From a virus: a DNA stretch of 64,000 bases. This document shows positions 11,173 to 35,521 of this stretch, one piece after another. The DNA lies in IMG/VR virus record IMGVR_UViG_3300017917_001342, positions 311,669 to 375,668 of that record. One strand, written 5' to 3'. The notes beneath the pieces were generated by a model, which had not been told where the DNA came from, made no database searches, and saw only the letters and a program-made list of their open reading frames with translations. Each line of letters opens with the position of its first letter. Positions within the stretch are counted from its first letter, which is position 1. The translations under genes were made by a program, and so were the position numbers.

Positions 11173-13662
11173 TCACCACTTGATATTCCACTGCAATGTA
11201 TTGCCAGTGATTGGATTAGTTTGACGGTTTATTGTGTAGCCCAAGTTAGTAAAGTACGCAATAACAGTGTCCATGCGTTCTGCATACGGGCGAGTTAGAT
11301 TGGGATCACTAGGTGTTTGATTTTGCCATACTGCCCAATAATCTCTACTTGCAGGATATGGTTGTATACTCATAGTACCTGTACCATAGCCGATAGTTGC
11401 AGTTGCAGTTGCAGTATTACCTGTTAAATTACTAGGCGCACTAATGGTAACTGCGGGCGCAGAATCATAACCGTCGCCGCTATTTGTGATAACAACTGTG
11501 TCTATACTAAAGCCTCTGATTACACTAGTCGTAGGCTGTATTGGCGAAACTGTTTCGCCTGCACCTGGTATTATGTTTACCTGTGGGTCACTGGTATAAT
11601 TCTGCCCACCGTTTGTAACTACAATCTGCTCAATACCTGTACTGTACAAACTGACATTCGCTGTTGCCGCACCGCCAATTGACACAGTTGGTACACTGGT
11701 ATAGTTTTCGCCGTAATTAGTAAGTGATAGATAATCAACTGTTGTAGGTCTCAATTGTGCAGATGCAACAGCACCGGACCCGTCGCCGTCAATGATAACT
11801 GTTGGTGCTAAGATATAACCACTACCTTCATTTACAACATCTATACTGACAATTTCACCGCCAACTATGTTAGGTGTTGCATAGGCATTTACACCGTGAT
11901 TGGTAACAAAGGTTACAGTAGCAGTTGTGTATCCAGAACCTGTGTTGCTAACATTAACATATTGTACACTAGTTGCTGACAATGTAGCAGTTGCAGTTGC
12001 TCCGCTACCGCTGGTAATTGTCACAGTTGGTACAGCAGTGTATCCAGTACCAGGAGCAGTAACTACTACATTACTAACAGAACCGCTTGATAATAACGAA
12101 TATGCACTGGCACCGTAACCAGTTAGATCGTTAGATGTAATTACTACAGTCGGGGGTGCAGTATATCCACTACCACCGTTTGACAACACAACACTACCAA
12201 TACCAGCAGTTAGGTTAAAACTTGCTGCTTGACCTGTGCCGCCGTATACAGCATTGTATGTCATTACAGGCAATACATTGTACGAACCACTGGTTTGTAG
12301 TGTGTACAGTACAATCTGTCCTTGTAGGCCAACTTCGTCTACTCGTATAGTTGCAGTACTGGTACCAGACCCACCTGCAACTATCAGTACATCGCCGACA
12401 CTGTATTGACTGCCTGCACCGCCTGTTACCAGATTAGCACCGATGATATTCATATAAACCGCAGATACCGCAGCACCGCCGCCGGCAGCATTTATACTAA
12501 CACCGGGCGGGCTTATGTAAGTTGCACCACCATTGTTTAGCAATGTAATGTTACCAACTCCTGTTGGCACCAAGTAGGGCGTTGCTGTTGCACTGCTTCC
12601 GCTAGTGATCGTCACTGTTGGTGCCGATGTATAGTTAGATCCTGGATTAGTAACTACAATACTTGTTACTGTACCGGCTGTTAAAACTGCTGTTGCAGTT
12701 GCACCAGTACCTCCACCTGACAATAAAACTCTAGGAGGTGCAGTATATTGACCCCCACTGTTACTAACTGCAATTGCAGATATACCCATTGTTAGATTAA
12801 GGGTACAGCCAGTGCCGCCTCCAGGTGCTACTGATGTAGACACAGCTATAAGTGTAGGAAGAGTGGTATAATTGCCGTAATTGAATAGACTTACAGTAAC
12901 AACTTCTCCGTTACTGCCAATTGAAGTTACAACTGCTGTGGTTGCCGAACCAACACCGCCAACTACACTTAAAACGTCCCCAATGTTATAATATTGTCCG
13001 CCTGCATTAACCTGTACAGAAACTGCTCTAAATGACACAGTGCCTGCTACTGCACCGCTACCTTGTGCTACGATAGACACACTTGGTACATAGTGATATC
13101 CAGTACCCTGGTAGCCGACTGTGATATATGAAATGTTACCGTAAGGTGCAAGGTATGCCATTGCAGTTGCTTCAACTGTTGCATTACCGCCTGTAAATGT
13201 AACAGTTGGTGTTGCAGTGTATCCACTACCGTTATTGGTAACTGTTATACTGTTAACACCCGATACTAAATCAATACTAATGGGACGTTTTGCAAGAGCA
13301 TCTTGTTTAGTTGCAGCTAACTTAACAGTATCAACGTCAACATATATTATATAATAGATGACACCAGTAGTTAATGGACTTGGTAATTGTCCAGTACTAC
13401 TAACAAACACTTCGTCGCCTGTGTTGTATCCATGACCGGCAACTGTAAAAGTATTTGCCGTGTCATCAATAGTATAAACAGGTGTAGTAATAGCCGAACT
13501 CTGAGTCATAGGTGACCCATTGTTTACCAGTGCATTATAGTATCCTATACGCACTGCATCTAGTATTGCACTACTGATTGCAGTACCCTCATCAAATACT
13601 ACACGTTCACGTATTGGATTCTGACGGGCTTCTGCCGCAGTAATGAAAATACTATTAGCCAT
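11173..13662 (-). CDS. Large repetitive virion protein (tail-fibre-like beta repeats)
   Basis: 829 residues. After a N-terminal region (about 1-140) the protein consists of roughly 16 repeats of 35-45 residues with the signature G-S-G-Y-T-x-x-P-T-V-x-I followed by a small Gly/Ala/Thr-rich strand (for example NGSGYTATPTVTF, PGTGYTAVPTVTI). Similar repeats occur in the plus-strand protein at 30304-31413. The C-terminal 75 residues (DYWAVWQNQTPSDPN, then RQTNPITGNTLQWNIKW) form a different domain. This is a fibrous surface protein, likely a tail-fibre or baseplate component for adhesion. The unit count can change by recombination between repeats. Confidence 0.75.
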   Translation of the reverse strand: MANSIFITAAEARQNPIRERVVFDEGTAISSAILDAVRIGYYNALVNNGSPMTQSSAITTPVYTIDDTANTFTVAGHGYNTGDEVFVSSTGQLPSPLTTGVIYYIIYVDVDTVKLAATKQDALAKRPISIDLVSGVNSITVTNNGSGYTATPTVTFTGGNATVEATAMAYLAPYGNISYITVGYQGTGYHYVPSVSIVAQGSGAVAGTVSFRAVSVQVNAGGQYYNIGDVLSVVGGVGSATTAVVTSIGSNGEVVTVSLFNYGNYTTLPTLIAVSTSVAPGGGTGCTLNLTMGISAIAVSNSGGQYTAPPRVLLSGGGTGATATAVLTAGTVTSIVVTNPGSNYTSAPTVTITSGSSATATPYLVPTGVGNITLLNNGGATYISPPGVSINAAGGGAAVSAVYMNIIGANLVTGGAGSQYSVGDVLIVAGGSGTSTATIRVDEVGLQGQIVLYTLQTSGSYNVLPVMTYNAVYGGTGQAASFNLTAGIGSVVLSNGGSGYTAPPTVVITSNDLTGYGASAYSLLSSGSVSNVVVTAPGTGYTAVPTVTITSGSGATATATLSATSVQYVNVSNTGSGYTTATVTFVTNHGVNAYATPNIVGGEIVSIDVVNEGSGYILAPTVIIDGDGSGAVASAQLRPTTVDYLSLTNYGENYTSVPTVSIGGAATANVSLYSTGIEQIVVTNGGQNYTSDPQVNIIPGAGETVSPIQPTTSVIRGFSIDTVVITNSGDGYDSAPAVTISAPSNLTGNTATATATIGYGTGTMSIQPYPASRDYWAVWQNQTPSDPNLTRPYAERMDTVIAYFTNLGYTINRQTNPITGNTLQWNIKW

Positions 13663-21856: not shown

Positions 21857-22303
21857 ATGGATAACATTGAATCTATTAAATCATATAAAGACTTGATCAG
21901 TCGGTTAAATGAGGCTGAAGAAGAGCCTGCTGTTACACCACCAGCAGAAGAGCCTGCTGTTACACCCCCGCCGGAAGAAGAGCCTGCTGCTGCACCAGAA
22001 GCAGATACAGTTGACCAAGAACAAGACGACAAAGAAATTGAAGATGTAATGACATCTCCAAAGTCTGAAACTAAAAAGATATCTATTGGTACACTTGCAT
22101 CTGATTTAGGTCTTGAAAATCCTGACATATTCAAATCTGCATTTAGACAACTTCGCAAAGGCGAATTACCAGACGACGAAGATGAAATGCGCGAATTGGG
22201 CGATGCATTTTTTAAAATAATGACCGCAGACGCATCTACCACACAAAGAGTAATAAATCGTCTGCGATCCATTTATCGTAAATCTTCTAAACCTAACGTC
22301 TAA
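21857..22303 (+). CDS. Acidic prohead-core-like protein (148 aa)
   Basis: 148 residues. An N-terminal helix with SYKDLISRLNEAEEE contains an LNE-A site resembling the T4 capsid-targeting/cleavage motif. A Glu/Pro/Ala repeat (EEPAVTPPAEEPAVTPPPEEE, about 22-45) follows, then an acidic linker and a folded C-terminal domain (IGTLASDLGLENPDIF, then QRVINRLRSIY). This is the composition of a small scaffold or core protein. It overlaps the end of the gp41 gene by 11 bases, tail to tail. Core role is inferred from composition and the late promoter. Confidence 0.65.
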   Translation: MDNIESIKSYKDLISRLNEAEEEPAVTPPAEEPAVTPPPEEEPAAAPEADTVDQEQDDKEIEDVMTSPKSETKKISIGTLASDLGLENPDIFKSAFRQLRKGELPDDEDEMRELGDAFFKIMTADASTTQRVINRLRSIYRKSSKPNV

Positions 22304-23729
22304 TTAAACTAGTCAACGACTGCAAATTCTGCATGTTCTTAGCTAAATCCGATGTGGGTTTAGCCGTTGCAACCTGTCGTGCTGCTGCTGGTGTATCTGT
22401 TTGATCAGCAGTGTTTTTTCTACGCAATGCATCAAACATATCTGCACCAGCAGCACTGGCCTGTAACTGATTTTGCTGTTCTTCGTCCAAATCAAATATA
22501 CGCAGTGTATTTGGATCAAATCCTAAGAATACTTTGCTTCCAACACCACTTGAACTACGAGTTTTTAAGAACTGTATTTGATACTGACCGCGCTCTTTCA
22601 TTGCTGCACTAGCAAAGATACTGATCACGTTGTCTGCTGTTTGAACTTTACTCAAACCACCTGCAATATGACTGTGGTCATGTTCTTGTTCTTGCACTGC
22701 TGATCTGTTTAACTGAGATGCTGTGATCCCAATCATATTGCGATCTGTACAAAGCCCTCTGAACTCTTCTGTAACAAACTTGTCTTTGATATTCAAGTTA
22801 CTCGGATCAATTGCTTTGTTGTTTGGATAAAGAAGATCAAGATAATCTACTATCAACACATCGCAACGTTGTTGGGTTTCAATTTCATAGTTTTTGAGAT
22901 ATGCTTTGAGATCATTACAGGTGCTACCCTGTGGCAATTGTCTAACATGTAGTAAACCACTTGATCGTTGTGCTTGCTTAACTTTGAGTTCAACAGTGTC
23001 TAGATTCCTAAAGATTTCTTTACTGCCAACTTCAGTAAGCATACTGTCCATACGCATACTTGTCAGACCTTCGCTAAGTTCTAATGTGATATAAACCACG
23101 TTTAGCTTTTGCTTAGCAAGGTTTATACTCATGTTTTGCAAGAACAGACTTTTACCAACACCAGAACCTGCTGCCCATATGGTTATCTCGCCTCGATTGA
23201 TACCGCCATAGAGCTTGTCGTCAACTGATTTCCAGCCAGTGGTTACCTGTCCGTTTTTGTCTTTAATTTTCAATAGACGTTCGCGCGGATTTTCAAAGTA
23301 GTTAGTACCTATATCACTTTGCAGACTTATTAAGATTGCATCTCTAACTAGTTTTTCAACTTCGCCATAGTTACCTTTGTCGATGAGTTCAGTACTTGCC
23401 AACACTGCTTCTGCCAATGCACGATTTTTACAAAATTCTTCAATTTCTTTCAAAAACGCATCTTGGTGACCGTCTGTTATATTTTCGATAAAATCAAACT
23501 CAATACCAGTTTCTGCTTTTACCTGTATAAACTTAGGCAATACTCGATATTCATCTGCATGTTTGAGAATATACCGCATAGCAGGTCGCAGTTTATTAAC
23601 AAAATACTTTGCATTTAAAATGTTGACACAGCGAGCAAATATATCCTCACTGCTCAGCAACACGCTTATAAGCAACTTTTGTTTTTCTTCACCATATTGT
23701 ATCGATTCTTGTTCTTCGCGCCTTGCCAT
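22293..23729 (-). CDS. 41: Replicative DNA helicase, DnaB/gp41-like
   Basis: 478 residues, the size of T4 gp41. The RecA-type core has Walker A GSGVGKS (188-194), an ITLELSEGLTSMR strand, Walker B VLIVDYLDLL and a SQLNRSA motif, all typical of hexameric DnaB-family helicases. The N-terminal 150 residues are the helical primase-interaction part. It unwinds the fork and works with the gp61 primase encoded two genes upstream. Ribosome site AAGGAAG. The gene starts one base after the nucleotidyltransferase gene. Confidence 0.95.
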   Translation of the reverse strand: MARREEQESIQYGEEKQKLLISVLLSSEDIFARCVNILNAKYFVNKLRPAMRYILKHADEYRVLPKFIQVKAETGIEFDFIENITDGHQDAFLKEIEEFCKNRALAEAVLASTELIDKGNYGEVEKLVRDAILISLQSDIGTNYFENPRERLLKIKDKNGQVTTGWKSVDDKLYGGINRGEITIWAAGSGVGKSLFLQNMSINLAKQKLNVVYITLELSEGLTSMRMDSMLTEVGSKEIFRNLDTVELKVKQAQRSSGLLHVRQLPQGSTCNDLKAYLKNYEIETQQRCDVLIVDYLDLLYPNNKAIDPSNLNIKDKFVTEEFRGLCTDRNMIGITASQLNRSAVQEQEHDHSHIAGGLSKVQTADNVISIFASAAMKERGQYQIQFLKTRSSSGVGSKVFLGFDPNTLRIFDLDEEQQNQLQASAAGADMFDALRRKNTADQTDTPAAARQVATAKPTSDLAKNMQNLQSLTSLIRR

Positions 23730-23730
23730 C

Positions 23731-24498
23731 TTACTTCCTTATAATATCATCTTCGACACAGTTTTCGCCAAACTGTATTTCTACCATTCTTAATTCTTCA
23801 GTACCTTCGTTGGCTAACTGATGCCAGTCGCCTGTGTGTATCCAAAGGTGTTCGTGTTCACTAAAGACACCAGCTAATTCTACATCGCTGCTGACATTCA
23901 GGGTATATACAGTTGCTTTACCGTGTGTAACGAACCAAAACTCAGACCGCTTGTCATGCTTTTGCATGCTTAGACGTTTACCCGGTTCTACCGTTAATTC
24001 TTTTAGTTTTACACTTTTACCGTCTTGATGTAGCACTCTGTAATACCCCCATTGCCTTTCTGTTTTGGCGTTTTTCCAATCTTCTAATAACCACGAGCTA
24101 GAGTTGGCTTTGTTATTACCTCCAACTGCCCAGACAAATTTTAAATCATCGTCGATCATAGACATCCGCATCTCTGGTGTGTTAGTGCTGCCTCTATCGC
24201 CGCCGTTTGCAAAAATTATAATGTCATCTGGATATTGCATTCTAACTTTTTTAATAGCGTCACATGCAGATCCGTCACTATCATCGAATTCAATTACATC
24301 ATCTACTACTTCCAAATTAGCAATTACACTTTTACGTTCTGGCATAGACATAAAAGGACGTTCTTTTTTTCTAGTAAGCCATGCATCTGAATTAAGCCCG
24401 ACTATTAATTTATCACCTAGAGATTTTGCAGCAATTAGGTACGCGATGTGGCCGCTGTGTATCGGATCAAATCCGCCTGTACACAATACAATTTTCAT
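23731..24498 (-). CDS. Fused nucleotidyltransferase (RfaE/TagD-type) and sugar-isomerase-type cupin
   Basis: 255 residues, two domains. Residues 1-130 are a cytidylyltransferase-like Rossmann domain with GGFDPIHSGHI (HxGH catalytic motif). Residues 145-255 are a cupin of the mannose-6-phosphate isomerase type II group (WGYYRVLHQDG, KRLSMQKHDKRSEFWFV, HTGDWHQL). The fusion probably makes or activates a nucleotide sugar or polyol. Its ATG overlaps the primase stop by 4 bases and its stop lies one base before gp41, so it is embedded in the replisome operon. The link to replication is unexplained; surface-glycan synthesis is the more usual role. Confidence 0.85.
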   Translation of the reverse strand: MKIVLCTGGFDPIHSGHIAYLIAAKSLGDKLIVGLNSDAWLTRKKERPFMSMPERKSVIANLEVVDDVIEFDDSDGSACDAIKKVRMQYPDDIIIFANGGDRGSTNTPEMRMSMIDDDLKFVWAVGGNNKANSSSWLLEDWKNAKTERQWGYYRVLHQDGKSVKLKELTVEPGKRLSMQKHDKRSEFWFVTHGKATVYTLNVSSDVELAGVFSEHEHLWIHTGDWHQLANEGTEELRMVEIQFGENCVEDDIIRK

Positions 24499-25517
24499 GA
24501 TTTGAACATCCTTCTTTTGATATTGATTTGCAATTTATTATGTGTTCTATTGTCTATTATAGTTTGCAACGTGAAAAGTTTACCGTATTTGCAAGATGCA
24601 TCTGCGGCATCTTTAACATCATCTTCCCATTCTGGAAAACTAACTGCCCAGTTCTCTTCTAATGCAACATCTATGAGACCTTGATTTTTACGCTGCCTGT
24701 CTGGCAACACAATTATTTCTTTGTCTGTGCTTTTTAGCAATGATAATTGTTGTTTGTTCAATTTGCTACCTAAAGCAGCAACACCATCTATTGCAATAGC
24801 ATCTAGTGGCCCTTCGACTAATATTACATATTTTCTATTTGTTTTATGAATTACATCGCTGTTAAACAAATAGCCAAGCTGGAGATCACTGTTATAATAT
24901 CTAGGAGTATCAGTTGGCGGTTTGCCTGCATAGCGTGCGGTCCACCCTACAATTTTATTTTTGTAATAAAATGGAATAATAAATCGCTTGTTGAGATCCC
25001 ATTTTTCGCTTGACGACCAATAATAATCCCAACCATTGGCAATTGCCGAGCCACGCGATGCAAGATAGTTACAGCATTGAACAAACTCGTCTGTGACGTT
25101 GTCATCTTCCATAACAACTTGAAACGGCCTTGCATTTTCTGGCAATTTAACTTCTGTAAAATCTGTTATGATTTTTACATCGCTAGTAGTTACTGCTACA
25201 TCAACACCATTTATTTTGTTATGCAATAATTCTAGCTTGACTCGTTTAACATCATCATCTGACACACCAAGCCATTTTAACAGATTATCAAATTTCTTGC
25301 TGATATTTTGATTGTCATAAACAGTTTTAAAACCACAGTTATAACAATTATATGCAACATATCCGCCTTCAGCCATAAGAAGGTTGCCGCGCATTCTATT
25401 GTCTTGATTATGGCCGCGATGATGACAACAAGGTGCATTAAACATAACCCAGCCGCGTGGACTAGATTTACGTTTTTGTGGTAGATGTTCCGCTATCAAC
25501 TGATGTACGAGTGCCAT
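24495..25517 (-). CDS. 61: DNA primase, gp61-like
   Basis: 340 residues, T4 gp61 size. An N-terminal zinc site (C30, C31, H33 region and CYNC at 58-61) reads single-strand templates. The middle shows a TOPRIM domain (VILVEGPLDAIAIDG with acid E, then IIVLPDRQ). It makes RNA primers with the gp41 helicase. There is no ribosome site; TATAAT stands 5 bases before the ATG, so the mRNA should be leaderless. It starts the operon primase - nucleotidyltransferase/cupin - helicase. Confidence 0.9.
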   Translation of the reverse strand: MALVHQLIAEHLPQKRKSSPRGWVMFNAPCCHHRGHNQDNRMRGNLLMAEGGYVAYNCYNCGFKTVYDNQNISKKFDNLLKWLGVSDDDVKRVKLELLHNKINGVDVAVTTSDVKIITDFTEVKLPENARPFQVVMEDDNVTDEFVQCCNYLASRGSAIANGWDYYWSSSEKWDLNKRFIIPFYYKNKIVGWTARYAGKPPTDTPRYYNSDLQLGYLFNSDVIHKTNRKYVILVEGPLDAIAIDGVAALGSKLNKQQLSLLKSTDKEIIVLPDRQRKNQGLIDVALEENWAVSFPEWEDDVKDAADASCKYGKLFTLQTIIDNRTHNKLQINIKRRMFKS

Positions 25518-26481: not shown

Positions 26482-26853
26482 ATGACAGACACAAAAAAAT
26501 TATTGCAGGAAAAGTTTCCATTCCTGACAATTGTTAGACATTTAAATCAAGATCACCTAGGCATTATACAAAATGCCGATCAATTATTTGTCAGCATTTA
26601 TGTAATGGACAATACTTTTACCCCAGACATGAAAAGAGATTTCCTAGAATGTGGTGACACATGGTGGTGGGAAAGCAATAGACAAATACCAATCAACATG
26701 TTCGTCAAAACAAAATTTGCACAGTTTAAACCGTACCTTCGTGTATTTGCCAGTAAAGATACAGAAATTGTACAAGGTCCTATAGTTAATCTAAAAGACA
26801 CAATGAACAAGCGAGTAAAGCGTAGAACTATTCAATTAGTGAGGACCAGCTGA
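26482..26853 (+). CDS. Unknown late protein (123 aa)
   Basis: 123 residues; pattern FLTIVRHLNQDHLGIIQNADQ, WWWESNRQIPINMF and a basic C-terminus. Proteins of this kind are found in other T4-like marine phages without a known role. It reads from the plus half of the divergent late promoter with an ACAGGA ribosome site and its stop overlaps the next start. The triple tryptophan and the conserved-looking core suggest a small folded domain rather than a disordered linker. Confidence 0.7.
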   Translation: MTDTKKLLQEKFPFLTIVRHLNQDHLGIIQNADQLFVSIYVMDNTFTPDMKRDFLECGDTWWWESNRQIPINMFVKTKFAQFKPYLRVFASKDTEIVQGPIVNLKDTMNKRVKRRTIQLVRTS

Positions 26854-27199: not shown

Positions 27200-27670
27200 T
27201 TAATCACGCAGTCCTGTCACGTCAAGGGTAACGGTAATAGTACCGTCATCGTTGACTTTGAGAACTTCTTGTTTAGGTTTGCCACGCTCAGCAGCATCTT
27301 CAGCTTCTTTTTCGTTGCTCCATTTTTCAAATAGGCTGTGCCTATATGCAAACATTGTAGCTTCGCTGCGATCAAAAATACGTGCAAATGCTGTAAATTC
27401 AACTGCATCATCTTCTTTGTCTTCAGCTTCAACCCAAACATTATAGGGTTCGGTAAACTGTTCCATAGTGTCCCAAATCTCTACAAGACGTGCTGGATCA
27501 AGCTTTGGACTGCGGAACAAATAACCTTCGCTAAGATCAGGTGACAATTGTGCAATTGGATCATACGACAAGTCGTGTCCTACGATCATTTGATTGTTTT
27601 TGTATTTGAGTTTAATATCGCGACCAAACATGTCGCCAGTGCAAATAAGTTTACATTTGGTGCGAGTCAT
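27200..27670 (-). CDS. Unknown protein of the early replication operon (156 aa)
   Basis: 156 residues; basic N-terminal beta region (CKLICTGDMFGRDIKLKYK), an acidic segment (AEDKEDDAVEFTAF) and a helical then beta C-terminus (DGTITVTLDVTGL). No family recognised. Its start overlaps the stop of the C-family polymerase-like gene by 4 bases and it ends at a terminator, so it is the last gene of the operon that begins at 29801. Confidence 0.65.
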   Translation of the reverse strand: MTRTKCKLICTGDMFGRDIKLKYKNNQMIVGHDLSYDPIAQLSPDLSEGYLFRSPKLDPARLVEIWDTMEQFTEPYNVWVEAEDKEDDAVEFTAFARIFDRSEATMFAYRHSLFEKWSNEKEAEDAAERGKPKQEVLKVNDDGTITVTLDVTGLRD

Positions 27671-28302
27671 ACCGACACTCCTTGTTGATGTGTACCTACT
27701 ATAGCAGATTTAACAGATTGGTCAAGTAGCAAATTTGCATGAACATACACTAGCATAGCATAACTCACAGCATGTGCTTTTTTGAACTCGTAACCTGCGT
27801 CACCTTTTGCCCAAATCTCATTGCGAATGCTGTCAAATCCATAGCGTTCACACTGTCCTTGCAAATGACGTTTACCAGGTCGTATCAATGCTAATATCAT
27901 TGCCAAATGTTCTATGCTGGTGGGTTTAAGTCTAGCTGTTAGATCTCCGTAGTTTCCCAAGTGAAACAGCTTAGATACAAACACTGGATTACGAAATACT
28001 GCCCAATCAATTGGTTTGTGCATTAGTTCGAGCAGATGTGCTTCGTTTCGTACCTGTTCATACACACCAACGTTTAGAAAATCGATCTTGAAGAATCCTC
28101 GTTCTTCAGCAGATTCGTAATCTATACTGCACAACCCACTGATCGGATCCTGTGGCACATCATGAAAATAAACACCTGTATTGTGTTTGGTAATTTTGCC
28201 ATCTTTGATGATACTTGCAGGGACATAGTTTAGTTCTGCTAGTGCTGCATCTCTGTTGGCAAAATCTATATCAATGTCACCACGCCGATGAATTCTGTTC
28301 AT
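27667..28302 (-). CDS. Short DnaE/C-family DNA polymerase-like protein (211 aa)
   Basis: 211 residues that collect the main motifs of bacterial DnaE in a very small space. GDIDIDF (D9, D11) matches the palm motif PDxDxDF with the two metal-binding aspartates, GFFKIDFLNV (D74) matches the third catalytic aspartate region, ALIRPGKRH (138-146) matches the RPG motif, and FKKAHAVSYA (173-182) matches the F-N-K-S-H-A-A-Y-A motif of the fingers. The PHP, thumb and tail domains are missing, as is much of the palm insert. It could be a minimal polymerase, a derived nucleotide-binding protein or a decoy of the host enzyme. DnaE homology is read from motifs; activity is inference. Confidence 0.7.
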   Translation of the reverse strand: MNRIHRRGDIDIDFANRDAALAELNYVPASIIKDGKITKHNTGVYFHDVPQDPISGLCSIDYESAEERGFFKIDFLNVGVYEQVRNEAHLLELMHKPIDWAVFRNPVFVSKLFHLGNYGDLTARLKPTSIEHLAMILALIRPGKRHLQGQCERYGFDSIRNEIWAKGDAGYEFKKAHAVSYAMLVYVHANLLLDQSVKSAIVGTHQQGVSV

Positions 28303-28607
28303 TATGACGCCTTGTCAATTTTATTGTTTAAGGTTGTCCTAAGTTTTTCTATATCTCTAACTCTATTTCTATAGTTGTCGTCTAACCGTGCAATTGCATT
28401 TTGCATATTTGCCATCATGCGTTCAGTATTACGCAAACGCTGTTCTAACATATTCACATAGTCCGGATCTATAATTTTAATACTTTGACCGTCTATGACA
28501 ATTTCTGTATGTGCAGGCTTTGAAATTAAAGATATTTTTTGTTGATTAGAGTCAGATTTATATTCATCGTCGTTGTCAGCACCGTACATGTCTATCATGT
28601 CGTCCAT
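28302..28607 (-). CDS. Small coiled-coil protein of early operon (101 aa)
   Basis: 101 residues. Acidic N-terminus, a short beta hairpin (TEIVIDGQSIKIIDP), then a predicted coiled coil from about residue 50 to the end (NMLEQRLRNTERMMANM, IEKLRTTLNNKI). It shares one base with both neighbours (stop/start overlaps), so it is made with the polymerase-like protein. A partner or oligomerisation role is possible; no family is recognised. Confidence 0.65.
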   Translation of the reverse strand: MDDMIDMYGADNDDEYKSDSNQQKISLISKPAHTEIVIDGQSIKIIDPDYVNMLEQRLRNTERMMANMQNAIARLDDNYRNRVRDIEKLRTTLNNKIDKAS

Positions 28608-29359
28608 TACATACCTGCCTTTTTTAAAGTGTCTTTGACAAAATTAGCACTTTCTTTATCATTTTTGAATTTCAATGACCATTGTGCCACTGGTGCTGCT
28701 GTCATAATTATGCCAACCTGTTCTGGTGTACAGCGTGTTAGCATGTCTGCTGCACTGTCTGCATTATACAGTACCCACGGTGATATACGACCCATTTTAA
28801 CCCAATTTGCAATTTGGTTGGTGTTGACTTCTCTGAAGAAGTCGTTCCAGGGTTTATCGTGTTGTTGTCCCCATTCACGCATTAAAATGATTGCACGTTC
28901 CAATGCTTGTTCGGGTGGTTCTGTTCGTATAAGTTCTTTGATGTATTGTTCGAACACAATATCATGTGTCCAATTGTCAATTGGTAAATTGTTTTTAATC
29001 ACATAATCTATGAACTTAGTTGGTTCAGGTACTGCAAGATCTAGTATATGTCTTGAAAATTTACTAAATGCAAGATAATACCTGCTATCTATAAATTCTC
29101 TATAGGTTTTCTTTTCGCCTTGTTTTTTGAGTCTTGAATTTAATTCATAAAATCTGCTCCAACCTAGAAATGCAATTCTGCCTTGAGGCTGATCTTTTTG
29201 AAACCACCGACGTTTCTTCTCACAGATATGATTAATTAATCGCATTTCATCTGTGAACTGACGTTCACAAAATTCGCACTTATACTGCCGTGGTTTTGTT
29301 GTAGAACTTTTTGGCATCTTCGACAAGCTCTTTGATTTCTGCTTTACTAAGTCCTGCAT
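28607..29359 (-). CDS. C2H2-type zinc-finger protein (250 aa)
   Basis: 250 residues. A classical-looking finger near residues 28-46 (CEFCERQFTDEMRLINHIC: C-x2-C ... H-x3-C variant) is followed by a helical domain of about 190 residues. The first ATG (29357-29359) overlaps the previous gene by about 80 bases; an ATG at 29315-29317 (MPKSSTTK) would shorten it by 14 residues and still keep the finger. Both starts have only moderate ribosome sites. Such proteins recur in T4-like marine phages without a known role. DNA or RNA binding is inferred from the finger. Confidence 0.7.
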   Translation of the reverse strand: MQDLVKQKSKSLSKMPKSSTTKPRQYKCEFCERQFTDEMRLINHICEKKRRWFQKDQPQGRIAFLGWSRFYELNSRLKKQGEKKTYREFIDSRYYLAFSKFSRHILDLAVPEPTKFIDYVIKNNLPIDNWTHDIVFEQYIKELIRTEPPEQALERAIILMREWGQQHDKPWNDFFREVNTNQIANWVKMGRISPWVLYNADSAADMLTRCTPEQVGIIMTAAPVAQWSLKFKNDKESANFVKDTLKKAGM

Positions 29360-29801
29360 CTTCGCCTAATTTCTGTAATGTGTCTTTATTGTGTTGACTT
29401 TTTAATATGTTTAACTCTGTTTCATTGATAGTAGGATACAGTCCTATTAAAAAATCATCAATTACTTTAGACGATGTAGTTTTACTAGATGCTCCAATGT
29501 AAGGCCTATATTGCGTTTTACCAGTACCAGTTAAACACAGTAACATATGCAGCAGTTCAGGATGTTTACCTAGCTGAAACAGTAATTTGTTAACAATTTC
29601 ATTGGTTATCATGACTGCATACGCAGCCGATTCATTTTGAGGACCAAGGCTGCTCATGCAACGCATTAAAACCAATGGTACATATAGTTTTTTATCGTCA
29701 TCACTTAGACGATTGTAATAGTCTAAATCTTTTCGATCTATAGCAGGTAATACCACCTTTAGATCTAGTCGTTTCTTTGTTGATGTTGTTGCTTTTGTCA
29801 T
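29280..29801 (-). CDS. Possible clamp-loader small subunit (gp62-like, 173 aa)
   Basis: 173 residues. The segment HPELLHMLLCLTGTGKTQYRPYI follows a pattern of gp62-type clamp-loader small subunits, and MRCMSSLGPQ with NEIVNKLLF precede it as helices. The evidence is only a general pattern match, so the assignment is tentative. It begins the early operon 29801-27200. The transcript start should coincide with the ATG at 29799-29801, because a sigma70-like -10 lies 5 bases before it. A GTG one codon earlier is possible. Confidence 0.5.
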   Translation of the reverse strand: MTKATTSTKKRLDLKVVLPAIDRKDLDYYNRLSDDDKKLYVPLVLMRCMSSLGPQNESAAYAVMITNEIVNKLLFQLGKHPELLHMLLCLTGTGKTQYRPYIGASSKTTSSKVIDDFLIGLYPTINETELNILKSQHNKDTLQKLGEDAGLSKAEIKELVEDAKKFYNKTTAV

Positions 29802-29806
29802 CACAC

Positions 29807-32040: not shown

Positions 32041-33501
32041 TCAGCTAAATCTGTCTATTTTCTCTATAGAAAAAGGGTATTTTGCTTGATTATAAAACTG
32101 TTTTCGTTTAGTTAAATGTCTTGCACTGAATTTACAGTTACTTGTCATATCCCAGATTTGCACAAAGTCTTTGTCTTCTGCTTTACGTAACCCTCGTCCA
32201 ATACTTTGAATAACACGAACAAAACTTTTACCAGGTTCGATTAGTACTAGGTTAAAGAGTCGAGGTACGTTAATACCAACAGCAGCAACGCCATAAGTAG
32301 CGATAAGCGTTTGATCATCATTAGTCGCGATGTTTTCATATTCTGCCTTTCTGTCTTTAGTCTTTACTGCACCGCTGATAAACGTACTTCCTTCTATCAA
32401 TGCTTCTAGTGCTTTACCAGTTTCTAGTCTATCGCATAACACAAGAGTGTTACCAGTTTTTGCAATAGCAGATATCATACTAGACATCCATTTGACTCGA
32501 TCTTTGTCTGTCACAAGAAATTTTAATTCTTCTTGGTAGTTGTTGTACTTCATAAGTTCTTTTGTCTGTAACACATTGACATGACACTTGGCAAGTACGC
32601 CTTTTTCTTGTAGATCACTTGCAAACAAATCGCCCACGTTAGGCCCAACGCTCGACAGTAAGCACAACTGATTTTGTTCTTCTTCTGGAATGGTACCAGT
32701 CATACCCCATCTGATTGGAACATGTCTAAACACAGTAGTCATCAAACGTGTAACAACTTCAGCTTGAAGAATGTGACACTCATCAACAATGACACATACC
32801 AGATTGTTCATAAATTCTTCAAGCTGGTTATCGTCTAGTGCTTCTTTGTGTTTCTTATCAAGTATGTTAAGACTTTGCCAAGTGCATATTGTATGCGTTT
32901 TGTTGTATTCTTTACGGTCGCCATAAAGTACACCAACATCTAAACCTAAGTTAATGTAATCGGCTTCGGTTTGTTCAACTAGACTTTTGTTAGGTACAAT
33001 AATAATACTGCGTCCAAAAGGCTCTACTAATTGACTTAGTGTAGCAGTTAGCAGTGTTTTGCCTGCACCGGTTGCAATCTGTTGAATACACTGTAGATTT
33101 TCTGCGTATCTGTTAACTAATTCTACTTGATAATCTCGCAGTACAATTGGTTGCCCTGCACGTTCATGTTTAGCGGGCCAAACTTTTGGATGATGTGCAT
33201 TTGAATCAATTGGTTTTAAATCAATGTGATATTGCATTCGTTCGTCGACAATATCTATCTCATAACCATTTTCTTTGATTATAGGCAACATGCGATCTAA
33301 TAGATTTAGATATGTGCGTCCGCCCATTGTACAAAAGCTTTGAGTACCATCCCATCTACCTAACTTAAATGCAGCACTGTATCTTGCACTAGGTAAGAAA
33401 TACTTAACTGCATTCACACATGCACGCCGTGTAGATAAGTCAAGACCGCCCATCTTGATGTTAACTTCGTCTTCTATTGTTATTATACATTCTTTAATCA
33501 T
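32041..33501 (-). CDS. uvsW: SF2 recombination helicase UvsW
   Basis: 486 residues, T4 UvsW size. An N-terminal beta module (RWDGTQSFC) is followed by helicase motifs: Walker A GAGKT in ATGAGKTLL, motif II DECH (IVDECHIL), motif III GMTGT and motif VI SIGRGLRK. It branch-migrates recombination intermediates and resolves R-loops in T4. The mRNA should be leaderless, with a sigma70-like -10 (TAAAAT) 5 bases before the ATG and no ribosome site. It lies between the groEL terminator and the 166-residue gene. Confidence 0.93.
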   Translation of the reverse strand: MIKECIITIEDEVNIKMGGLDLSTRRACVNAVKYFLPSARYSAAFKLGRWDGTQSFCTMGGRTYLNLLDRMLPIIKENGYEIDIVDERMQYHIDLKPIDSNAHHPKVWPAKHERAGQPIVLRDYQVELVNRYAENLQCIQQIATGAGKTLLTATLSQLVEPFGRSIIIVPNKSLVEQTEADYINLGLDVGVLYGDRKEYNKTHTICTWQSLNILDKKHKEALDDNQLEEFMNNLVCVIVDECHILQAEVVTRLMTTVFRHVPIRWGMTGTIPEEEQNQLCLLSSVGPNVGDLFASDLQEKGVLAKCHVNVLQTKELMKYNNYQEELKFLVTDKDRVKWMSSMISAIAKTGNTLVLCDRLETGKALEALIEGSTFISGAVKTKDRKAEYENIATNDDQTLIATYGVAAVGINVPRLFNLVLIEPGKSFVRVIQSIGRGLRKAEDKDFVQIWDMTSNCKFSARHLTKRKQFYNQAKYPFSIEKIDRFS

Positions 33502-33593: not shown

Positions 33594-35219
<1,626 letters not shown>

Positions 35220-35230
35220 TTATTCTCCTA

Positions 35231-35521
35231 TTAATCAAGCACTGCAAAGATTTCGTCTTCTTTAAGAATCAACAGATCCTCACCTTGGTGGCGAATCTGC
35301 GTACCAGAATGCTTACCAAACAGCACACGGTTACTAACTGTAACGTCAATTGGAAGATAGTTGCCATTGCGGTCTTTCTTGCCCGGACCGACTGCTAGCA
35401 CAACACCTACATTTGGTTTTTCAGCGACAGAATCTGGGATAACGAGACCACCTTTAGTGACATTATCGCTGTCCACTCTTTTTACTATGACCCTATCATT
35501 AAGCGGTCTTAGATCTGACAT
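35231..35521 (-). CDS. groES: Co-chaperonin GroES
   Basis: 96 residues, standard GroES length. Opening LRPLNDRVIVKRV, mobile-loop segment GGLVIPDSVAEKP and the roof strand structure (VGVVLAVGPGK) are clear. It caps the GroEL ring. It begins the groES-groEL operon, with an AGGAGA ribosome site and a promoter and hairpin upstream at 35550-35603. Confidence 0.97.
   Translation of the reverse strand: MSDLRPLNDRVIVKRVDSDNVTKGGLVIPDSVAEKPNVGVVLAVGPGKKDRNGNYLPIDVTVSNRVLFGKHSGTQIRHQGEDLLILKEDEIFAVLD

Follow-up and report, generated by a model that had tools for sequence, protein, structure and literature searches.

A jumbo-phage protein with DnaE motifs is probably half of a split, minimal C-family polymerase core

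What is a 211-amino-acid protein with the catalytic motifs of DnaE, the alpha subunit of bacterial DNA polymerase III, doing in the genome of a T4-like jumbo phage? The gene lies at 27667-28302 on the minus strand of the window, by which we mean the whole stretch of 64,000 nucleotides that was analysed (G000:C1:311669-375668, part of the 518,643-base virus record G000). The plus strand across the gene is crowded with stop codons. A sequence-only reading of the window had described a 211-residue protein with DnaE motifs in DnaE order, and all of the motifs that it quoted are found in this open reading frame. We think it quite probable that the protein is half of a two-subunit, split, minimal core of a C-family (DnaE-like) polymerase, to which it would contribute the metal-binding palm strands and reduced fingers. 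We will call it the C-half.

A profile search bore out the link to DnaE: the C-half belongs to phrog_11778 ("DNA polymerase"; hmmscan E = 5.9e-60, covering profile positions 4-194 of 197). Against the Pfam domain DNA_pol3_finger (PF17657), it scored 13.7 bits, which is under the curated cut-off of 22. Using tblastn, we found relatives in 90 phage records, all of them less than 60% identical, and a scan with a degenerate pattern found 316 loci in IMG/VR, the closest of which is 83% identical. Against the nearest relative that we compared, dN is 0.13 and dS is 1.6, for a dN/dS ratio of about 0.08 (an approximate value, with dS above 1). Together with the invariance of the catalytic residues, these results put the DnaE motifs far beyond chance.

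Each of the four motifs, all on the minus strand, aligns to a known part of the E. coli enzyme. DIDIDF (residues 9-14; 28261-28278) is in the first palm strand and is invariant in 67/67 distinct members whose sequences include it; its D9 and D11 align to D401 and D403 of E. coli DnaE, in PDFDVDF. (The E. coli residue numbers are from the MG1655 gene.) Within KIDFL (residues 72-76; 28075-28089), K72 and D74 are invariant in 68/68 distinct members and correspond to K553 and D555, with D555 in the context KFDFLG. R141, P142, and K144 of RPGK (residues 141-144; 27871-27882) are also invariant (68/68), and R141 corresponds to R639, in RPGP. The finger helix FKKAHAVSYA (residues 173-182; 27757-27786) has an invariant H177 and Y181 (67/67), which correspond to H760 and Y764, with H760 in NKSHSAAY. 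In an alignment of 49 sequences, D9, D11, D13, K72, D74, R141, P142, K144, Y171, F173, H177, and Y181 are invariant. In the broader set of 68 distinct C-halves, there are zero substitutions at D9, D11, D74, K72, R141, or H177, while Y171 and F173 are substituted in one or two sequences. In E. coli DnaE, D401, D403, and D555 are active-site residues, and H760 is the proposed steric gate (PMC8485763). The first reading had picked D9, D11, and D74 as the catalytic aspartates; because they match the three aspartates named for E. coli, and are invariant, we agree.

Could the C-half instead be what is left of a host dnaE that was captured and is now decaying? It is far shorter than DnaE, and a related phage protein was termed truncated by earlier authors (PMC5259590). 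But the C-half is under purifying selection, its active site is invariant, and it has many intact relatives of near-constant length (184-214 amino acids) in a fixed gene order. The dN/dS ratio and the invariance of these residues rule out a relic, in our view almost with certainty. We also considered a cellular origin, or prophage copies, and rejected them: a scan of genomes found just two near full-length matches, both on contigs from metagenome-assembled genomes (MAGs), and the remaining matches were partial and consistent with ordinary bacterial DnaE. The two near full-length relatives, L199 (NZHE01000029.1) and L200 (PUKM01000272.1), are on contigs that were binned as Rickettsiales and Natrialbaceae; these may be phage contigs that were wrongly binned.

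The predicted structure of the C-half agrees with its motifs. AlphaFold2, given an alignment of the family, produced a confident model (pLDDT 92.1, pTM 0.84), with predicted strands at residues 10-14 (the D9/D11 segment) and 73-77 (the D74 segment) that are arranged as in DnaE. When we compared the model to the PDB using Foldseek, ranks 1-10 were all Pol III alpha (best E = 6.0e-4), and the rest were not above background. In a library of viral structures, the matches above background were phage C-family polymerases or unnamed proteins. Most of the superpositions are poor globally, with rmsd of 7-10 Å, presumably due to deletions in the C-half. The sequence-only reading had asked that a model place D9, D11, and D74 at one metal site; our model agrees with this only in the weaker sense of a Pol III alpha fold and topology.

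The deletions are large. D11 and D74 are 63 residues apart in the C-half versus 152 in E. coli, and R141 and H177 are 36 residues apart versus 121. At these shorter distances, the C-half has no thumb and has lost much of its fingers. Nor does it have the clamp-binding region, since the chain stops some 30 residues past the finger motif. At the other end, the C-half starts beyond the GRGS helix of the palm, which is absent from the chain. The C-half is not a complete minimal polymerase.

The first reading had also raised the idea of a decoy, and more broadly, the C-half might inhibit replication by binding the host's clamp or the host's Pol III. Phages do produce replication inhibitors, and the C-half looks like a part of the host's own replicase. 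However, the clamp-binding region of DnaE is missing, and just 1 of 88 members of the C-half family has a canonical clamp-binding motif near its C terminus. Furthermore, invariant catalytic residues are unexpected for a decoy, and a partner with the complementary piece of the active site is present in 11/11 isolate genomes that we checked (see below). We consider a decoy or inhibitor to be highly improbable, and binding of the clamp finds no backing in these data.

The partner turned up when we searched the same record with Pfam PF07733. There was one match over the curated cut-off (37 bits, at 12276-12497 on the minus strand), and it lies in a gene for a 173-residue protein, outside the window (G000:C1:12273-12794, minus strand), which also matches phrog_11127 (E = 5.1e-45). 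We will call this protein the N-half. The two genes are 326,541 bases apart, or 192,102 should the genome be circular. Searching with the N-half alone found one relative, and using an alignment of N-halves as the query found at least 585. GRGS is invariant in 88/88 distinct N-halves. The longer motif GxGRGSSVxS is invariant in 66 aligned N-halves; among the 88 distinct sequences, its later positions have one or two exceptions. For L089, a relative that is 69% identical to our N-half, AlphaFold2 gave a pLDDT of 89.5 and a pTM of 0.63, and ranks 1-11 of the Foldseek comparison to the PDB were all Pol III alpha (for example, 5lew, with 97 columns and 3.5 Å).

The N-half and the C-half are exactly complementary. 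The N-half ends with GVGRGSSVSSYVLYLIGINRINPMQFDLDIKEFLK (...FDLDIKEFLK), and positions 105-175 of the profile for its family align to residues 323-393 of E. coli alpha and stop there. The C-half starts with MNRIHRRGDIDIDF (...GDIDIDF), which is the strand of D401. So, the two proteins cover the palm on either side of a single break, with zero overlap.

The two halves also occur together. Searching whole records with profiles, we found exactly one C-half and one N-half in each of 11/11 genomes of isolated phages (Atu_ph07, XaC1, 121Q, Phosso, RaK2, SCTP-2, Paride, CM1, Slickus01, Vibrio 2.275.O, and XacN1), at distances of 10.9 to 224 kb. One of these genomes is just 141 kb. Among 12 records from IMG/VR, which may be fragments, five have both halves, four have only the N-half, and three have only the C-half. 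The main exception is G002, the largest of the four records with only the N-half (359 kb; it may also be a fragment), which has no detected C-half. We did not find fused halves (a "Rosetta stone" protein) among 91 C-half and 104 N-half open reading frames.

The joint retention of both genes in 11/11 genomes bears on whether the C-half might act alone as a minimal polymerase. In favor of this, a single chain holds all three catalytic aspartates as well as the finger helix that contacts the dNTP. But a pol-beta-type active site includes the GRGS helix, which comes from the other gene, so we judge that a stand-alone C-half is very unlikely. The original suggestion of a minimal polymerase therefore stands in part: the C-half does have the core motifs of DnaE, but the plausible enzyme is a heterodimer, because a separate gene, itself conserved, encodes the GRGS helix.

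Are there other pieces of DnaE in these genomes? The profile for full-length DnaE (phrog_405) matches just the two halves in G000 and in the eleven isolates, with no third fragment detected. We see no PHP domain, thumb, or clamp-binding region, the fingers have lost their LRRAMGKK segment, and neither half has room for the PHP, thumb, or clamp-binding domains. Without these parts, a processive polymerase is doubtful. These phages also have a family-B polymerase: G000 has a 922-amino-acid open reading frame that matches DNA_pol_B, and all 11 of the isolates have a family-B polymerase. In three of the isolates, the family-B matches are in two separate frames (Atu_ph07, W01 (NC_042013.1):212336-213688; Paride, W07 (OR805295.1):88906-92683; and Slickus01, W09 (OQ508957.1):3596-5100), and these polymerases may be split or interrupted too.

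Both half genes lie in replication blocks, but in different ones. Around the C-half, the order is UvsW, g178, (g174), g250, the C-half, the convergent gene g123, primase, and DnaB, and it is kept in 16 of the 17 loci that we compared. (One of the 16, L058, has no detected g174; the seventeenth locus, from the divergent phage XacN1, has short flanks, and only the C-half was seen.) In the window, this block extends from a UvsW-type helicase at its upstream limit (32041-33501, minus strand; phrog_16, E = 6.2e-71) to a DnaG-type primase (24495-25517, minus strand; phrog_47, E = 1.4e-29) and a DnaB/gp41-type replicative helicase (22293-23729, minus strand; phrog_19, E = 1.2e-69). The conserved upstream neighbors are a 174-residue protein (29280-29804, minus strand; phrog_11758) and a 250-residue protein with a zinc-finger-like N terminus (28607-29359, minus strand; phrog_11058, E = 1.3e-64), which keeps its place in the order at 16/16 syntenic loci. 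A gene for a 101-residue protein (28302-28607, minus strand) overlaps the start codon of the C-half by 1 base and is in the same place in close relatives. Downstream, a gene for a 156-residue protein (27200-27670, minus strand) overlaps the C-half by 4 bases and was detected in close relatives only; it is followed by the conserved convergent gene, which encodes 123 residues (26482-26853, plus strand; phrog_11637).

The first reading had placed a possible clamp-loader subunit in the operon of the C-half, but we found no clamp-loader signature in the adjacent operon genes that we tested. Instead, the gp44-type clamp loader of G000 is about 327 kb from the C-half, three genes downstream of the N-half. 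The usual order after the N-half is a gene for a protein of about 115 residues, a GroES-like or other small gene, and gp44. G000 also has a match to a DnaQ-type exonuclease domain. The Pfam family for the gp45 sliding clamp has zero matches in the entire record; the clamp may be too divergent or may be supplied otherwise.

We noticed a few other genes in or near these blocks. By eye, the phage seems to have GroEL-like and GroES-like chaperonin genes beside the replication block (33594-35216 and 35231-35521 of the window, minus strand). The primase and DnaB genes are separated by a gene for a nucleotidyltransferase-like protein (23731-24498, minus strand; phrog_7878, of the heptose adenylyltransferase type), which is in the same place in close relatives and elsewhere in the more distant relative L082. 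And a Dda-like helicase gene (L102:12794-13891, minus strand) ends on the first base of the start codon of an N-half.

We propose that the two halves dimerize where the palm is interrupted, with the GRGS helix on one side and the first catalytic strand on the other, which would restore a single palm. The GRGS helix would come from the N-half, while the C-half would bring D9, D11, and D74 along with a shortened fingers module, including the helix that contacts the dNTP. The restored palm would transfer nucleotides by a two-metal mechanism, and H177 would select deoxynucleotides. The heterodimer would be an accessory polymerase in a T4-like replisome, with the family-B gp43 homolog as the main replicase. 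Given the homology and fold of both halves, their joint presence, and their invariant active site, we infer that neither half works without the other, and that together they are most likely an accessory DNA polymerase or nucleotidyltransferase of two subunits. As to its activity, we lean towards template-dependent DNA synthesis.

The main rival to our proposal, in line with the distinct nucleotide-handling enzyme of the first reading, is that the halves are active together as a nucleotidyltransferase other than a template-dependent DNA polymerase, which might add nucleotides to a primer end, to RNA, or to a protein, or might make a signal nucleotide. The pol-beta fold is widely used beyond polymerases. 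The halves have neither a thumb nor a clamp-binding part, they have lost much of the fingers, and a family-B replicase is already on hand. On the other hand, the finger helix of DnaE is retained, and the steric-gate histidine and the tyrosine are invariant, which points to selection of deoxynucleotides; and both genes are within replication neighborhoods. We consider this rival to be unlikely, although less so than the other alternatives discussed above.

A split minimal Pol III alpha in group 2.2 jumbo phages was previously described by computational analysis, and a two-protein model of the split core was proposed in the same study (Iyer et al. 2021, PMC7824862). The protein in our window is another member of this kind. 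Their system corresponds to phrog_11778 (the C-half) and phrog_11127 (the N-half), and nothing essential differs: in both, short proteins from distant genes provide a GRGS/NTP-binding half and a metal- and template-binding half, in T4-like phages with a family-B polymerase. To their description we add the partner in G000, where the break falls with respect to E. coli DnaE, and the 1:1 presence of the halves in 11 isolates. We also add the lack of a third detectable fragment, the invariant steric-gate histidine, and the conserved neighborhoods. Single halves were noted in the genome papers for CBB (as a truncated alpha subunit, PMC5259590) and for Atu_ph07 (as gp316, PMC6102473). In the literature that we searched, we did not find experimental work on the pair of halves.

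Compared to bacterial DnaE, the order and identity of the catalytic motifs are alike, and both halves match its fold. However, the phage proteins lack the PHP, thumb, clamp-binding, OB, and tau-binding parts, their fingers are shortened, and they are encoded by two genes. DnaE is also encoded by two genes in Cbastvirus (Tenacibaculum phage Larrie and Cellulophaga phi13:1; phrog_13169 and phrog_12219), and the palm is broken at the same place, after the GRGS helix and before the DxD strand. The Cbastvirus proteins differ in that the parts are near full size, the genes are adjacent, and the N gene has an extra tail of about 50 amino acids. The broken genes are at L101:2834-6414 and L261:2804-6404, and the tail, which follows FLNSGRMG, might be a remnant or a linker. 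We did not find a family-B polymerase in Larrie. In cyanobacteria, the catalytic subunit DnaE is likewise encoded by two distant genes, whose products are joined by protein splicing (a split intein). But the cyanobacterial break point is different, and there is no room for an intein in the phage halves: the N-half has no residues after EFLK, and in the C-half, just eight residues precede the first catalytic aspartate.

Although the family was already reported, our analysis makes a test of it concrete, and the conserved break and the high conservation of the halves should make co-expression an easy test. A more tentative suggestion, which we hold with a little less than even confidence, is that the heterodimer could be the smallest natural C-family polymerase: a second, specialized polymerase beside gp43, with no thumb or clamp-binding domain, whose activity is gated by the assembly of separately expressed halves. 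If so, the make-up of the heterodimer would reveal the minimal core of the bacterial replicase. If the halves do form a working polymerase, then they show how small a part of the bacterial replicase is enough for catalysis. They would also pose the question of why a phage that already has a family-B replicase keeps a second polymerase as two unlinked genes.
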